DNA of 64,000 bases from Chryseobacterium sp. W4I1 (GTDB lineage: Bacteria > Bacteroidota > Bacteroidia > Flavobacteriales > Weeksellaceae), in NCBI RefSeq assembly GCF_030816115.1, contig NZ_JAUSXQ010000001.1, positions 2,976,001 to 3,040,000 on the forward strand, in the 5' to 3' direction. Under the pieces are notes generated by a model, which was not told the DNA's origin, did not search any database, and was given only the letters and a program-made list of their open reading frames with translations. Each line of letters begins with the position of its first letter. Position 1 is the first letter of the stretch. Position numbers and translations under genes: made by a program. Below, in pieces: positions 41,335 to 47,491 of this stretch.

Positions 41335-41724
41335 TTATTCCGTAAGTTTATCCAGCCAGTCACTATCCAGTCTTTTAATCTTCTGAGTTTTCAAATCAAC
41401 CAAAACCCAAAGCGTACTTGAATCTACTACAAGTTTGTCATTACAGTAAAACTCTACTTTCCTTGGTTGCTTTATACCTTCAGGTGCTTTCGGATAGGTC
41501 TTGACGGTAATAATATCTCCAAGATAGACCTGTTTTTTATATTGGATATGATGGTCAACGAGCATCCAGATATCGTCCGGATAATCCGTTTTCTCCTTAA
41601 CAAGTTCCCAGTGCTCAGTTGCCATTTCTTCTACCCAATGTACGTACTGAACATTGTTGACATGATTATTCTGGTCGATGTGTGCTTCTGTAACCTGGAT
41701 TTGTTTCTGGTAAGTTAAATTCAT
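41335..41724 (-). CDS. Acyl-CoA thioesterase (hotdog fold, YbgC-like)
   Basis: I start at ATG 41724 (129 residues) because the conserved part begins there; an upstream TTG at 41787 adds only a poorly conserved stretch. The protein has the 4-hydroxybenzoyl-CoA-type HIDQNNHVNNVQYVHWVEE motif, with the Asp that marks the catalytic site, and FYCNDKLVVDSSTLWVL. It hydrolyses acyl-CoA or acyl-ACP thioesters; the acyl chain is not predictable. Confidence 0.85.
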   Translation of the reverse strand: MNLTYQKQIQVTEAHIDQNNHVNNVQYVHWVEEMATEHWELVKEKTDYPDDIWMLVDHHIQYKKQVYLGDIITVKTYPKAPEGIKQPRKVEFYCNDKLVVDSSTLWVLVDLKTQKIKRLDSDWLDKLTE

Positions 41725-41851: not shown

Positions 41852-43132
41852 TCAATGAAACTGTGCCGTTTCCGTAGAGTCTTTCATGGCAACCGTTGCG
41901 GAAGAACCATTGGTCACCACATTCTGAACCTCATCAAAATATCCTGTTCCTACAAACGACTGGTGTTTTACCGCTCTGAATCCTTTCTGCTGAAGGGCAA
42001 ACTCACGCTCCTGAAGCTCAGAATATCCCGCCATGCCTCTTTCTTTATAAGCTAAAGCAAGCTCGAACATAGCCGTATTTAATGCATGGAAACCGGCCAG
42101 TGTTATGAATTGGAATTTATAGCCCATTTTGGCAAGCTCTTCACGGAAATTAGCCATTTCTTCAACACTTAGTCTTGCCGCCCAGTTGAAGGAAGGTGAA
42201 CAGTTGTAAGCCAGCATCTTTCCCGGAAATTTCGCATGAATCCCCTCTGCAAATCTTTTCGCCTGTTCAAGATCAGGGTTAGAAGTTTCCATCCAGATCA
42301 GGTCTGCGTAAGGTGCATAGGAAAGACCACGATCTATTCCCTGCTCTACTCCGTTATTTACAACGTAGAAACCTTCGGAAGTTCTTTCTCCGGTTACAAA
42401 TTTCTTATCTCTGTCATCAATATCCGAAGTTAAAAGATCTGCAGCATCGGCATCCGTTCTAGCAATAATAATACTCGGAACACCCAATACATCTGAAGCC
42501 AGACGGGCTGCCACCAGTTTATTAATCGCTTCCTGGGTCGGTACCAAAACCTTTCCTCCCAAATGGCCGCATTTTTTAGCCGAAGAAAGCTGATCTTCGA
42601 AGTGTACCGCTGCTGCTCCGGCTTCAATCATCTGTTTCATCAGTTCAAAAGCATTCAGGTTTCCTCCAAATCCGGCTTCAGCATCTGCAATAATGGGAAC
42701 CAGATATTCTTTATCTCCCTTTCCGCTCACGGATTGTACCTGATCTGCCCTTAATAAAGCATTATTAATTTTTTTCACCACGGAAGGCACCGAGTTCGCA
42801 GGATACAGTGATTGATCAGGATACATTTCACCGGACAAATTAGCATCCGCAGCCACCTGCCATCCTGAAAGATAAATGGCTTCCAGACCTGCATCCACTT
42901 CCTGAACCGCCTGGTTTCCTGTAAGGGCACCCAAACCGGCTACATAATCCTGATTATTCAGTTTGTCCCAGAATTTTTTGGACATTTCTGTTGCAATGGT
43001 ATAGTCAATTGTATAAGAACCTCGCAGCTTCAATACTTCTTCAGCCGTATAGGTTCTTTTTATTCCGTTCCAGCGGGGATTGTTCAGCCAATCCTGTTCT
43101 ATAGCCTGGATCTGCTCTTGTCTTGTTTTCAT
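41852..43132 (-). CDS. aceA: Isocitrate lyase
   Basis: The 426-residue protein has the catalytic [17 protein letters not shown] loop with the active Cys, and metal-site residues in [12 protein letters not shown] and HFEDQ. It splits isocitrate into glyoxylate and succinate, the first step of the glyoxylate shunt. It follows malate synthase on the same strand; an inverted repeat fills the gap. Expect induction on acetate or fatty acids. Confidence 0.95.
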
Positions 43133-43254: not shown

Positions 43255-44832
43255 CTACTCAATAAATGGATAAGCTTTCAAAGTCAGGAATTCTTCAAAT
43301 TTTTCCGAGAACACCAGTTCATTAAAAATCTCTTTGGCCAAATTGAATTTTCCGTTTTTGAAACGTTGTTCGCCTACATATTTCTCAATGTGTTCTATTT
43401 CTTCTGCTTCCCACTGGAGAATCATTTCACGGGTCAAGGTAAGACCAGTGTCAAGCTTGGCTTCATTTTTTAGCCATTGCCACAATTGCGTTCTTGAGAT
43501 CTCTGCGGTGGCAGCATCTTCCATCAGGTTATAAATAGCTGCTGCACCTGTACCCATCAGCCAGCTTTCCAGATAGAGAATTCCAACATTGATATTCTTT
43601 CTTACACCTTTTTGTGTGATCTCACCTTTCGGAACTTCAAGAAGATCTGCTTCTTTAATATGATATTCAAATTTTTTATCGATTTGATTGTCTGTCGGCA
43701 TATACTGGTCAAAAATATCTTTCGCTACAGAAACCAATGCCGGATGTGCCACCCAGGTTCCATCATGGCCGTTTTTTACCTCCCGCTTCTTGTCATTACG
43801 TACTTTTTCAAAAGCAATACTGTTGGCTTCATAGTTGTCCTTCACGGGAATTTGAGCTGCCATACCTCCAATTGCATGAACGTTTCTTTTATGACAGAGC
43901 TCAATCACTCTTTTTGAATAGGCACTCATAAATGGTGATGCCATTGTCACCTGATCTCTGTCCGGCACCATAAACTCGGGAAGGTTTCTGAATTTTTTGA
44001 TGAAGGAGAAAATATAATCCCATCTTCCGCAGTTCAGCCCGGCACTGTGCTCTCTTAGTTCATATAAAATTTCATCAATCTGAAATGAAGCGGTGATAGT
44101 TTCGATCAACACTGTGGCTTTAATTGTTCCTGCAGGAATGCCAAGATAGTTTTGGGCAAAAACAAAAACATCATTCCACCAACGGGCTTCCTTATAGTGT
44201 TCTAATTTCGGAAGGTAAAAGTAAGGACCGCTTCCGTTTTTAAGAAGCTGCTCTGCATTGGTGAAAAAATAAATTCCAAAATCAATCAGTGAACCTGATG
44301 TTTCTTCACCGTTGATCTCAACATGCTTTTCCGAAAGGTGTAAACCTCTTGGCCGCACCTGAAGAACAGCTGTCTTTTCATTAAGGTGATAAAATTTTCC
44401 ATTTTCAGCAGTAAAATCAATATTCCGATTTATAGCATCTGCAAGATTGATCTGTCCCTGAATACAGTTTTCCCACGTGGGCGAATTGCTGTCTTCAAAA
44501 TCAGCCATAAAAGTAAGAGCTCCTGAATTCAATGCATTGATGATCATTTTACGGTCTACGGGACCTGTGATCTCCACCCTTCTGTCTAAAAGATCAGCAG
44601 GAAGTGATGCACATATCCAGTTTCCATTTCTGACTCCTTCAGTTTCCGGCAAAAATCCGGGAAGATTTCCCTGATCAAACTGCAGCTGTATTTTTTTTCT
44701 TTCTTCTAAAAGTTCAAGTCTTTTATGATTGAAGTTCTGATGAAGTGCAACCAGAAAATCGGTCAATTCAGGACTAAAAACTGCTTCAAACTGCTTCTGT
44801 GCCTTTATTTTTAATTGAGTCTGAGTTTCCAT
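43255..44832 (-). CDS. aceB: Malate synthase A
   Basis: I start at ATG 44832 (525 residues); the open frame extends 17 codons further but without similarity. Family motifs are visible: MADFEDSNSPTWEN, RPRGLHL, TVLIETITASFQ, GRWDYIFSF, and a late catalytic region GVRKNINVGILYLESWLMGTGAA. It condenses glyoxylate with acetyl-CoA to malate. It is the first gene of the glyoxylate pair and is divergent from the regulator, sharing a 126-base region with a palindrome in its centre. Confidence 0.94.
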   Translation of the reverse strand: METQTQLKIKAQKQFEAVFSPELTDFLVALHQNFNHKRLELLEERKKIQLQFDQGNLPGFLPETEGVRNGNWICASLPADLLDRRVEITGPVDRKMIINALNSGALTFMADFEDSNSPTWENCIQGQINLADAINRNIDFTAENGKFYHLNEKTAVLQVRPRGLHLSEKHVEINGEETSGSLIDFGIYFFTNAEQLLKNGSGPYFYLPKLEHYKEARWWNDVFVFAQNYLGIPAGTIKATVLIETITASFQIDEILYELREHSAGLNCGRWDYIFSFIKKFRNLPEFMVPDRDQVTMASPFMSAYSKRVIELCHKRNVHAIGGMAAQIPVKDNYEANSIAFEKVRNDKKREVKNGHDGTWVAHPALVSVAKDIFDQYMPTDNQIDKKFEYHIKEADLLEVPKGEITQKGVRKNINVGILYLESWLMGTGAAAIYNLMEDAATAEISRTQLWQWLKNEAKLDTGLTLTREMILQWEAEEIEHIEKYVGEQRFKNGKFNLAKEIFNELVFSEKFEEFLTLKAYPFIE

Positions 44833-44885
44833 AACGTGTTGATTTTGAGATTTGATGTTACAAACATAAATAAAAATATTCACAA

Positions 44886-44903
44886 TTAGCGAACGTTCGC
44901 TAA
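44886..44903. promoter_or_regulatory. 18-bp perfect palindrome, candidate operator of the glyoxylate divergon
   Basis: TTAGCGAACGTTCGCTAA is perfectly symmetric. Its centre lies about 62 bases upstream of aceB and 64 bases upstream of the regulator gene, nearly midway. The GC-rich core stands out against AT-rich surroundings. A binding site for the adjacent regulator is the simplest reading. Confidence 0.65.
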
Positions 44904-44947
44904 ATAATTTTTAAAATTTATTATGCTGAAAATCGCATTCAATTTTT

Positions 44948-44955
44948 TATATTTG
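44948..44955 (+). promoter_or_regulatory. TAnnTTTG box three bases before the regulator ATG
   Basis: TATATTTG fits the -7 consensus and is followed by GGT and the ATG at 44959, so a message started from it would be leaderless or nearly so. No clear -33 TTG is seen. Confidence 0.3.
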
Positions 44956-44958
44956 GGT

Positions 44959-46440
44959 ATGAATTCAGAAAGTGATTATATTAAAACGGTGTTCGGACTC
45001 AAGCTGAAACAGCTCAGACAAAAGAAAAACTGGTCTCTGCAGGATCTTGCCTTAAAGACCGGTTTATCAAAATCTTACCTCAATGAAATTGAAAACGGAA
45101 AAAAATATCCGAAACACGATAAGATCATCCTTCTTTCTGAGTCGCTGAGCAGCACTTTTGATGAGCTGGTTTCTACGAAGCTTGACAAAGGTTTGGCTCC
45201 GTTTAATGAAATCCTGCAGTCTGATTTTTTTAAAGAAATTCCACTGGACCTTTTTGGAATCAACAAAAATAATCTAATCAGCATTATCAGTGACGCTCCC
45301 AAAAAAGTAACGGCTTTTATAAATGCGCTGATCGAGATCTCACAGAATTATAATTTAGGAAAGGAGCGTTTTTACTTTGCTGTACTGCGGTCTTTTCAGG
45401 AGCTCTATGATAATTATTTTCCTGAAATTGAGGAGAAAGCAATGGAATTCATCAGGGAAAACGGAATAGACATCAATGAAGATCTTCAGGCTTCGGTTTT
45501 GGAGAATATTCTTGCTGAAAAGTTTAAATACAATATCAGATCTGATGATTTTGAACAGTTCGGAACTCTTGATAATCTCCGCTCACTGTTTATTCCTGAA
45601 CAGAAACTGCTGCTGCTGAACAGGAAGCTTGAAAAAGACCAGCGAACCTTTATTTTAGCAAAGGAAATAGGATTTAATGTCCTGGAACTGAAAGTACGTC
45701 CGAATACCTATTCATGGCTGGATTTTGGAAGTTTTGAAGAAATTCTGAATAATTTTTATGCTTCGTATTTTGCAGGCGCTTTACTGATCTCAAAGAAAAG
45801 GACTGTTGAAAAAACCTCAGAATTTTTCCTACAGCATACCTGGGAACCAAAAGGTTTTGAAGCATTGATCGAGAGTTTTACAGATTCTCCTGAAACGTTT
45901 TATTACAGGCTTACAAATCTTCTTTCTTCGGAAATGGGTATCCGGGATCTTTTTTATCTGTGTCTGGTGAAGAAAAAAGGCTCGGACAAGATTCAGATCT
46001 TAAAGGAGCTTCACCTGAACCATCAGCAGGCACCACATGCGAATGCCATGAACGAGCATTACTGCCGGAGATGGATTGCAGTGAAAAACCTGCATCATCT
46101 AAAAGAAAACGAAACGCTGACTGATGCCCAGATCTCTCATTATAAAGATCAGGGAGTGAGTTATCTTGTGATCTCCACTTCTCAGAAAAACCCGTTTTCG
46201 GATGGCAGCAACAGAAGCTACTGTCTTGGGATCCTGCTCAACTCACAGACGATCAAGAAAATCGGCTTTATAAAATCTCCAACAATAAAAACAATCAATG
46301 TAGGAGTGACCTGCGAATCCTGCAGTATTGCAGACTGTGAAGTAAGGCAGGCTCCGCCGGTAAGGCTGGAAAAGGAATATTTTAACCTTAGCATGAAGAA
46401 TGCTGTTGAGAAGATCAGGAAACAGGTGAATAATGAATAG
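44959..46440 (+). CDS. RamB/ScfR-like transcriptional regulator of acetate metabolism
   Basis: The start at ATG 44959 gives 493 residues; an ATG at 44923 is possible but adds an unconserved stretch. Order of domains: a Cro/XRE helix-turn-helix (about 8-70, LKQLRQKKNWSLQDLALKTG), a degenerate IrrE/DUF955-like middle part (RTFILAKEIGFNV, with no HExxH) and a C-terminal Cys-containing domain (GVTCESCSIADCEVRQAPP). This is the layout of short-chain fatty acyl-CoA regulators such as RamB, ScfR and MccR. Divergence from aceB supports control of the glyoxylate shunt, probably sensing an acyl-CoA. Confidence 0.85.
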   Translation: MNSESDYIKTVFGLKLKQLRQKKNWSLQDLALKTGLSKSYLNEIENGKKYPKHDKIILLSESLSSTFDELVSTKLDKGLAPFNEILQSDFFKEIPLDLFGINKNNLISIISDAPKKVTAFINALIEISQNYNLGKERFYFAVLRSFQELYDNYFPEIEEKAMEFIRENGIDINEDLQASVLENILAEKFKYNIRSDDFEQFGTLDNLRSLFIPEQKLLLLNRKLEKDQRTFILAKEIGFNVLELKVRPNTYSWLDFGSFEEILNNFYASYFAGALLISKKRTVEKTSEFFLQHTWEPKGFEALIESFTDSPETFYYRLTNLLSSEMGIRDLFYLCLVKKKGSDKIQILKELHLNHQQAPHANAMNEHYCRRWIAVKNLHHLKENETLTDAQISHYKDQGVSYLVISTSQKNPFSDGSNRSYCLGILLNSQTIKKIGFIKSPTIKTINVGVTCESCSIADCEVRQAPPVRLEKEYFNLSMKNAVEKIRKQVNNE

Positions 46441-46475
46441 TGAATAGTGAATAGTGAATAGTGAATAGTGAATAG
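46434..46475. repeat. Six tandem copies of the heptamer TGAATAG
   Basis: Six exact tandem copies begin inside the last codons of the regulator gene; the first copy supplies its TAG stop codon. Each unit contains TGA and TAG, so the array puts stops in all three plus-strand frames. Confidence 0.8.
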
Positions 46476-46542
46476 TGAAAAATTAAAGATTCTCTCTAAC
46501 TTCTAAACTCTAGTTTGTAACTTTTAATAAAAAAACACACCG

Positions 46543-47213: not shown

Positions 47214-47285
47214 TTTTAGAGTTTTAGAGTTTTAGAGTTTTAGAGTTTTAGAGTTTTAGAGTTTTAGAGTTTTAGAGTTTTAGAG
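47214..47285. repeat. Nine tandem copies of the octamer TTTTAGAG
   Basis: Nine exact copies lie in the gap between the comF-like and hydrolase genes. A reverse-complement copy (CTCTAAAA) sits at 47423-47430, and the same octamer forms the arms of the inverted repeat at 43177-43252. Confidence 0.85.
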
Positions 47286-47491
47286 TAAAATATAGTTTGT
47301 TCAGCAATGATTAAACGATAATGTCAATTATAAATTTTGTTTTACAAGTAAATAATAAAATATTAAATAACTAATAACCATCAACCAACAACCAGCAGCT
47401 AACAACCCATTCAACGCAAAAACTCTAAAACCCTCAAACTCCCCTTTCCTTTTCCGATTCTTTTTACTAATTTTCCTGTAAACTATTGATC

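Follow-up and report, generated by a model that had tools for sequence, protein, structure and literature searches.

In Paracoccus denitrificans, the class 2 regulator RamB of the ScfR family is encoded divergently from ms-icl, acts as an activator and binds coenzyme A (CoA) esters (PMC10370305; this and the other papers cited by PubMed Central (PMC) number are drawn on in excerpt). In Mycobacterium tuberculosis, the RamB/PrpR operator is TTTGC(A/G)AA, and the buried [4Fe-4S] cluster of MtPrpR serves ligand retention (PMC6765138). The proteobacterial regulators FadR, PsrA and FadP govern fatty-acid degradation genes, and PsrA in Shewanellaceae also controls aceBA, sdh and gltA (PMC5343134). 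Here we analysed a stretch of 64,000 nucleotides from Chryseobacterium sp. W4I1 (contig NZ_JAUSXQ010000001.1, positions 2,976,001 to 3,040,000; hereafter the window), in which a regulator gene and aceB are separated by a 126-bp gap, counted from the conserved start codon at 44959, that holds a perfect palindrome, O1 (Table 1). We consider it highly probable that the locus is a local, autoregulated switch, in which the PrpR-fold regulator acts at O1 on aceB(A) and on its own gene.

The nearest system in layout and logic is Paracoccus RamB, an XRE-type regulator divergent from malate synthase and isocitrate lyase, as in the window; divergence from the glyoxylate operon, which marks class 2 RamB, is thus shared by the window locus. 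However, Paracoccus RamB has two near-identical boxes with an 18-bp spacer, whereas the main site in the window is a single inverted repeat, and its host uses the ethylmalonyl-CoA pathway (PMC10370305). Judging from the wild-type and mutated oligonucleotides in that source, the Paracoccus boxes appear to contain TGACAAAC.. and TGACAATA.., not AGCGAANNTTCGCT. MtPrpR and MtRamB (PDB 6CZ6, 6CYY, 6CYJ and 6D2S) share 19% identity with the window regulator, and the MtPrpR site consists of TTTGCAAA and TTTGCgAA in tandem, in contrast to the single inverted repeat here (PMC6765138). The half-boxes TTAGCGAA and TTTGCGAA are alike at seven of eight positions, with one base different, and by this likeness a common origin with the PrpR site is possible. 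A search for the class 1 box TTTGC(A/G)AA on both strands of the 126-bp gap (pattern and complement forms) found none; O1 is not this RamB/PrpR box and does not appear to be one of the Paracoccus class 2 boxes. FadR, PsrA and FadP have a similar target set but are GntR or TetR proteins, unrelated to XRE/PrpR-fold proteins, and SinR, compared through its DNA-binding domain (PDB 3QQ6, 1B0N and 3ZKC), differs in having no sensor domain. In the open-licence PMC literature searched, we found neither a report of a Bacteroidota RamB/ScfR/PrpR-type regulator or acetate/fatty-acid operator nor the letters of the operator. The protein, whose gene faces genes needed for growth on acetate or fat, is likely a so far undescribed carbon-use regulator, with acyl-CoA sensing probable.

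The palindrome is conserved beside the regulator gene

A sequence-only reading of the window had described aceB and aceA as transcribed away from an XRE regulator gene, with a symmetric 18-mer at the midpoint between them. The coordinates, strands and TIGR01344 match bear out the first point, and O1 is indeed a perfect palindrome, whose centre (44894.5) lies 1 bp off the midpoint of the gap. At ≤3 mismatches the 18-mer is expected by chance 0.02 times per window, and it is single-copy in the whole genome of the host (4.62 Mb, one contig). The outer TTA/TAA varies; only the 14-bp core AGCGAANNTTCGCT is conserved.

In a scan of the genus, the 18-mer was found at ≤2 mismatches in 109 of 148 genomes. 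Among the 41 genus genomes covered by both the palindrome and the regulator scans, 26 have both, 14 have neither, and one (G147; G and L are our handles for genomes and loci) has the regulator only at that cut-off. The G147 palindrome lies beyond two mismatches, yet its locus L042 keeps the 14-bp core. The palindrome is thus absent from all 14 of these genomes without the regulator.

Beyond the genus, we picked 76 of the matched regulator loci for comparison; they come from the rest of the family and from different families of the same order. The exact core lies within 400 bp upstream of the regulator in 62 of them, and 12 of the remaining 14 carry a core with one change. The last two are L078, where the exact site stands at aceB, on the far side of an inserted gene and 939 bp away, and L121, with no site at the regulator and the exact site in its genome solely at the unlinked aceB. 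At class and phylum level, an exact site is present in 32 of 47 loci, a site with one change in five and one with two changes in two. No match fell within 400 bp downstream of the regulator in any group or in any of the shuffles. A motif-free search returned AGCGAA-N2-TTCGCT as the top perfect inverted repeat in both distant sets (32/47 class/phylum loci, next distinct-site repeat 9; 62/76 family/order loci, next 7). The exact site is present in 75 of the 80 named loci (best 80 listed), and the operator persists down to 32-42% regulator protein identity. The earlier expectation that the palindrome recurs beside orthologous aceB/regulator pairs therefore holds well beyond Flavobacteriia.

Together, these comparisons indicate that the operator-regulator unit is real and deeply conserved. 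An operator that stays stable while its protein drifts to ~35% identity is a good case for studies of regulon rewiring.

Extra half-sites around O1 numbered 5 in the genus loci (5.5 in shuffled sequence), 17 in the family and order loci (12.3) and 56 in the class and phylum loci (7.4), often 21-23 bp from the O1 centre. Half-site arrays near the relatives of the window were dropped, enrichment being confined to class and phylum. The regulators of L293, L297 and L306, in large class-level genomes, have no adjoining palindrome. G946 has two regulator copies, L305 with a site, facing the gene for phosphoenolpyruvate carboxykinase (PEPCK), and L306 without one.

The site probably belongs to the regulator

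Across the order (395 genomes), the regulator (E 1e-20) was found in 91 genomes, and malate synthase A (E 1e-50) in exactly the same ones. Forty-two of these lie outside the family, and in 41 of them aceB and the regulator gene are within 400 bp of each other, the exception being G377. Within the family (197 genomes), 115 have both genes, three the regulator only and none aceB only. Separations of the two genes are informative as to ownership. The aceB-less genomes G239, G174 and G167 (L092, L097 and L098) keep the exact site 40-41 bp before the regulator, and at class and phylum level the exact site stands beside the regulator in 16 of 25 loci without aceB or aceA in the examined stretch. The regulator of G377 lacks a site, and the single exact genomic copy lies 54 bp before aceB. 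Because a third-party regulator would need to mimic all these co-occurrences and separations, we attribute O1 to the regulator, which is predicted to bind it.

Such a third party could be a TetR-type acyl-CoA repressor of the FadP/PsrA kind, which would bind O1 to control aceB as well as the XRE gene, while the product of the latter would bind elsewhere. Perfect palindromes of this size are common among TetR operators, and TetR regulators govern fatty-acid genes, as PsrA of Shewanellaceae governs aceBA (see above). However, the site stays with the regulator gene in the 16 loci just mentioned, it is missing from the 14 genus genomes found to lack the regulator, and a self-regulated TetR protein would need a copy of its own, whereas the host genome has a single site. 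We therefore hold a foreign owner of O1 to be quite improbable.

Promoter geometry and a second site

We take TAnnTTTG to be the Bacteroidetes -7 consensus and counted it at 142 distinct loci in comparison with shuffled flanks. On the target side, it starts at +15 to +25 from the core in 72 loci, mostly at 19-20 (shuffled mean 1.2). On the regulator side, 71 loci have it ending 0-12 nt ahead of the presumed start codon, mostly at 3-5 nt (shuffled mean 2.2), a distance which suggests that the regulator mRNA is near-leaderless. ATG 44923, the listed start of the open reading frame (ORF), adjoins the degenerate O2 region and precedes the regulator -7 box; it was therefore dropped and is probably not the regulator start.

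The regulator side carries a second operator-like site, GCGANNNNTCGC, in 41 of the 142 loci (39 at +22/+23; shuffled mean 0.24), the target side in none. Its internal spacing is that of O1, and nearly all 41 carriers are loci of the family. O1 and O2 thus lie near the -33 regions of aceB and of the regulator gene, respectively, from which we infer that aceB is regulated through O1 and that O2 serves autorepression.

The analysis establishes O1 and its joint conservation with the regulator, the layout of the promoters and, as described below, a predicted PrpR fold and four cysteines. We propose the following mechanistic model. The XRE-domain dimer of the regulator would bind O1 and control both flanking transcription units, aceB(A) and its own gene. 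Since O1 sits where the -33 element of aceB is expected, 19 nt from the -7 box, its occupancy could either recruit or block RNA polymerase. In the version that we prefer, aceB would be activated in a ligand-dependent manner, and O2, in the loci that have one, would mediate autorepression. Alternatively, the regulator may be a classical repressor that blocks aceB at O1 on sugars and is released by acyl-CoA or by loss of an iron-sulfur (Fe-S) cluster. The overlap of O1 with the expected -33 region suits such a repressor, as does the repression of icl1 by MtRamB (PMC6765138), whereas Paracoccus RamB, likewise divergent from ms-icl, is an activator (PMC10370305). The replacement of a -33 box by an operator would also suggest an activator-dependent promoter. 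Repression of aceB is thus a tentative alternative that deserves to be kept in mind.

That the palindrome is a terminator or an RNA hairpin is hardly credible. Some extra genomic copies do lie at gene ends (mazG-like 3' ends, by sight) and may be terminators, but O1 is upstream of both predicted -7 boxes of the divergent genes, so that neither transcript should contain it.

The regulator has a predicted PrpR fold

The XRE helix-turn-helix (HTH) domain spans residues 12-70 (HTH_3 match 16-70). The domain order given by the sequence-only reading, an XRE domain, an IrrE-like middle and a cysteine-bearing C-terminus, is broadly right, although two of the matches behind it fall just under the cut-offs (IrrE-like/Peptidase_M78, 21.4 bits versus 22; ScfRs C-terminal domain PF09856, 22.9 bits versus the curated 24). 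Its designation as RamB/ScfR-like stands in so far as the protein is RamB/PrpR-like and faces a glyoxylate-shunt operon, but the protein is not a RamB equivalog (NF038139, 41.5 bits versus 700). Among 49 relatives, HTH_3 is matched at E 0.01 in all, M78 in 47 and ScfRs in 39 (best E 1.2e-7). In the VIA-align comparison, the rows are dominated by the HTH domain, and absent families are not interpreted. In the AlphaFold2 model (predicted local distance difference test score 82.3, predicted template modelling score 0.74), residues 137-485 match MtPrpR, and the profile of the 49 relatives matches PrpR chains at E 0.002-0.003. The XRE HTH, IrrE-like, GAF-like and C-terminal cysteine regions together make up the domain set of PrpR-fold regulators (IsaR, PMC6765138). 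Because the RamB equivalog and Pfam ScfRs cut-offs are both missed, we class the protein as PrpR-fold and ScfR-like; on the model, it represents a Bacteroidota clade with a PrpR fold that is ScfR/RamB-like but neither RamB nor a certified ScfR.

Four cysteines, as in PrpR-fold regulators, are present in all 49 relatives (C369, C452, C455 and C460), and a [4Fe-4S] cluster is predicted. By its position, C369 is the probable counterpart of MtPrpR Cys363, the fourth Fe-S ligand (PMC6765138). At class and phylum level, C-X2-C-X4-C is found in 29 of 47 loci, and C-X2-C-X6-C in 14 of 15 others inspected. The C-X2-C-X6-C orthologues are deep-branching (L301, L307, L310, L311, L314, L318, L322, L324-L327, L329, L333 and L334) and mostly retain the identical operator.

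As the signal we consider an acyl-CoA most likely, either acetyl-CoA or another short one; as in MtPrpR, it would sit between the IrrE-like and GAF-like domains, beneath a lid that the [4Fe-4S] cluster stiffens. It is unlikely, by comparison, that the cluster itself is the main signal, in an iron/redox switch that lowers or reroutes Fe-S-rich tricarboxylic acid (TCA) steps and for which acyl-CoA is structural. Besides the invariant cysteines, such a switch would account for the sites that precede the genes for aconitase, SdhC of succinate dehydrogenase and the dihydroxy-acid dehydratase IlvD in some lineages, all of these enzymes carrying Fe-S clusters. However, most of the fitting targets are beta-oxidation genes, PEPCK and aceBA, which have acyl-CoA carbon in common and not iron, and the buried cluster of MtPrpR has its role in ligand retention (see above).

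Operator copies in other lineages

In the host genome, no second target was seen with the 18-mer at ≤3 mismatches or with the core at ≤2 mismatches, where 75 forward matches against 69 of the reversed control amount to background. O1 as one site of a multi-site regulon was thus rejected for this genome, and the switch looks local there. Sixty family and order genomes (58 picked for the regulator, G079 and G107) gave exact sites in 51, exactly one in 41 of them. In 41 class and phylum genomes with the regulator, exact sites occur in 39, one or two in 32 and three to nine in seven; the reversed control pattern is absent from 31 and occurs once in ten.

The regulator gene itself faces other targets in some lineages. 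In seven loci, its divergent neighbour is an acyl-CoA ligase/3-hydroxyacyl-CoA dehydrogenase operon (L308 by hidden Markov model (HMM), six by N-terminal likeness); in L305 it is PEPCK, with a core identical to that of the window, and in L303 aconitase, with one change in the site.

From the extra exact copies listed, we further collected 53, made up of 41 sites at 40 loci and 12 more, excluding the main aceB sites L408 and L409; G642:C103, G732:C126 and the second G079 site, for instance, lie outside this set. By mechanical ORF calls, 28 of the 41 sites are intergenic, and several others lie inside upstream-extended ORFs (L370, L373 and L376). By our tally, 19 of the 53 copies lie ≤300 bp before genes of beta-oxidation, the TCA cycle, gluconeogenesis or acyl-CoA use (L370, L372-L377 with two in L375, L387-L389, L391-L393, L397-L399, L418 and L419; L392, without Pfam match, is counted for its likeness to L389). 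These genes include acyl-CoA dehydrogenases, enoyl-CoA hydratase, 3-hydroxyacyl-CoA dehydrogenases, electron transfer flavoprotein (ETF), PEPCK, aconitase, SdhC, IcmF, acetyl-CoA hydrolase and citrate synthase. In G781, beta-oxidation or ETF genes follow the site at five of eight extra places (six of nine sites). The remaining three comprise a nitronate-monooxygenase-like gene, a 4Fe-4S protein and a place of unclear context. Because annotated neighbours and start codons were chosen by hand, the tally is not a blind enrichment test.

The sequence-only reading had seen a compact acetate-responsive switch. A regulator facing a glyoxylate-shunt operon across a conserved operator is what we find, but an acyl-CoA/fatty-acid carbon switch fits better than acetate alone, because the same operator precedes beta-oxidation, PEPCK and TCA genes in other lineages. 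A broader reading, which we regard as evenly balanced, is that of an ancestral, phylum-wide Bacteroidota regulator of acyl-CoA carbon: one PrpR-fold protein with one near-unchanging operator, AGCGAANNTTCGCT, integrating acyl-CoA and Fe-S status. It would have been variously rewired to the glyoxylate shunt, beta-oxidation, PEPCK, aconitase, succinate dehydrogenase, and citrate synthase or acetyl-CoA hydrolase, by lineage, and have shrunk to aceBA in most Flavobacteriales. If so, it would be the counterpart of FadR/PsrA in this phylum. The regulator, its 14-bp operator, which shows a near one-to-one pattern across species, and the predicted promoters make control of the glyoxylate shunt, and perhaps of fatty-acid breakdown in other lineages, directly testable in a large phylum.

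Several points weigh against the acyl-CoA switch proposed here. DNA binding by the regulator, its ligand, its cluster and the sign of regulation are what we infer. The Pfam ScfRs cut-off of 24 bits is missed by the window protein and reached by none of the 10 relatives checked. The predicted CoA-pocket residues match MtPrpR just in part, so that the ligand is not readable from the pocket: H319 corresponds to Y316 (Q 26, Y 21 and H 2 in the 49 relatives), R338 to C335 (R 29, C 20), and the selectivity position F155 to F140 (L 26, F 17, Y 4, S 2), too variable a position for ligand specificity to be taken from it. Eight of the 47 class and phylum loci have no recognisable site within 400 bp; among these eight, L302 has an exact copy farther upstream, at 504 bp. 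By our tally, 34 of the 53 extra copies do not fit a carbon-use regulon, and we rejected the extra sites as proof of a regulon everywhere. These 34 have other or unannotated genes as neighbours, assessed for the most part by eye and not by HMM, and include all nine fetched extras of G866 and G872 and the mazG-like 3'-end copies of G239, G167, G225 and G254.

Four family genomes (L410-L413) have a conserved AGCGAATTTTCGCT-type palindrome at a mazG-like 3' end (by sight), probably a terminator and not an operator. In L390 and L394, of one genus, the site lies 103-127 bp before similar-looking proteins of 409-413 aa with signal-peptide-like starts; these have no Pfam match at 1e-6 and are possible porins. 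Sites near phenylalanine 4-monooxygenase, a homogentisate-dioxygenase-like gene and dihydroxy-acid dehydratase (L395, L372, L400 and L401, the last by sight) are not accounted for by a fatty-acid regulon.

Features of the locus and neighbouring genes

Table 1 Coordinates of the features discussed, in window positions
Feature	Position	Strand	Description
O1 TTAGCGAACGTTCGCTAA	44886-44903	none	perfect 18-bp palindrome; conserved with the regulator in relatives
O1 core AGCGAANNTTCGCT	44888-44901	none	conserved, 14 bp
O2 GCTGAAAATCGC	44925-44936	none	degenerate second operator-like site in the regulator promoter; relatives have GCGANNNNTCGC at equal offset
aceB -7 element TATGTTTG	44861-44868	-	TAnnTTTG, Bacteroidetes-type; 19 nt from O1 core
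Regulator -7 element TATATTTG	44948-44955	+	3 nt before start codon
aceB	43255-44832	-	malate synthase A; TIGR01344, 786.7 bits
aceA	41852-43132	-	isocitrate lyase; 122 bp after aceB
Thioesterase gene	41335-41724	-	acyl-acyl carrier protein/4HBT-type; same strand as aceA, behind it
Regulator gene	44959-46440	+	493 aa; PrpR-fold, ScfR-like; XRE HTH, IrrE-like fold, GAF-like fold, cysteine-bearing C-terminal region
C369 codon (EHYCRRW)	46063-46065	+	invariant (49/49); paired with MtPrpR Cys363 by position
C452-X2-C455-X4-C460	46312-46338	+	invariant (49/49); aligned with MtPrpR C447-X2-C-X4-C455

The closest named relatives of the regulator among the matches listed (best 80) are from Chryseobacterium species, with identity up to 92%. 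At least 18 of the 80 named loci have a thioesterase homologue near the equivalent position (~4 kb upstream covered), with three further short edge matches; the gene is possibly a third member of the aceB-aceA operon that trims acyl-CoA. Downstream of the regulator gene, a comF-like gene is flanked by short tandem repeats (46435-46480 and 47215-47290, by eye), with TGAATAG-like and TTTTAGAG-like units.

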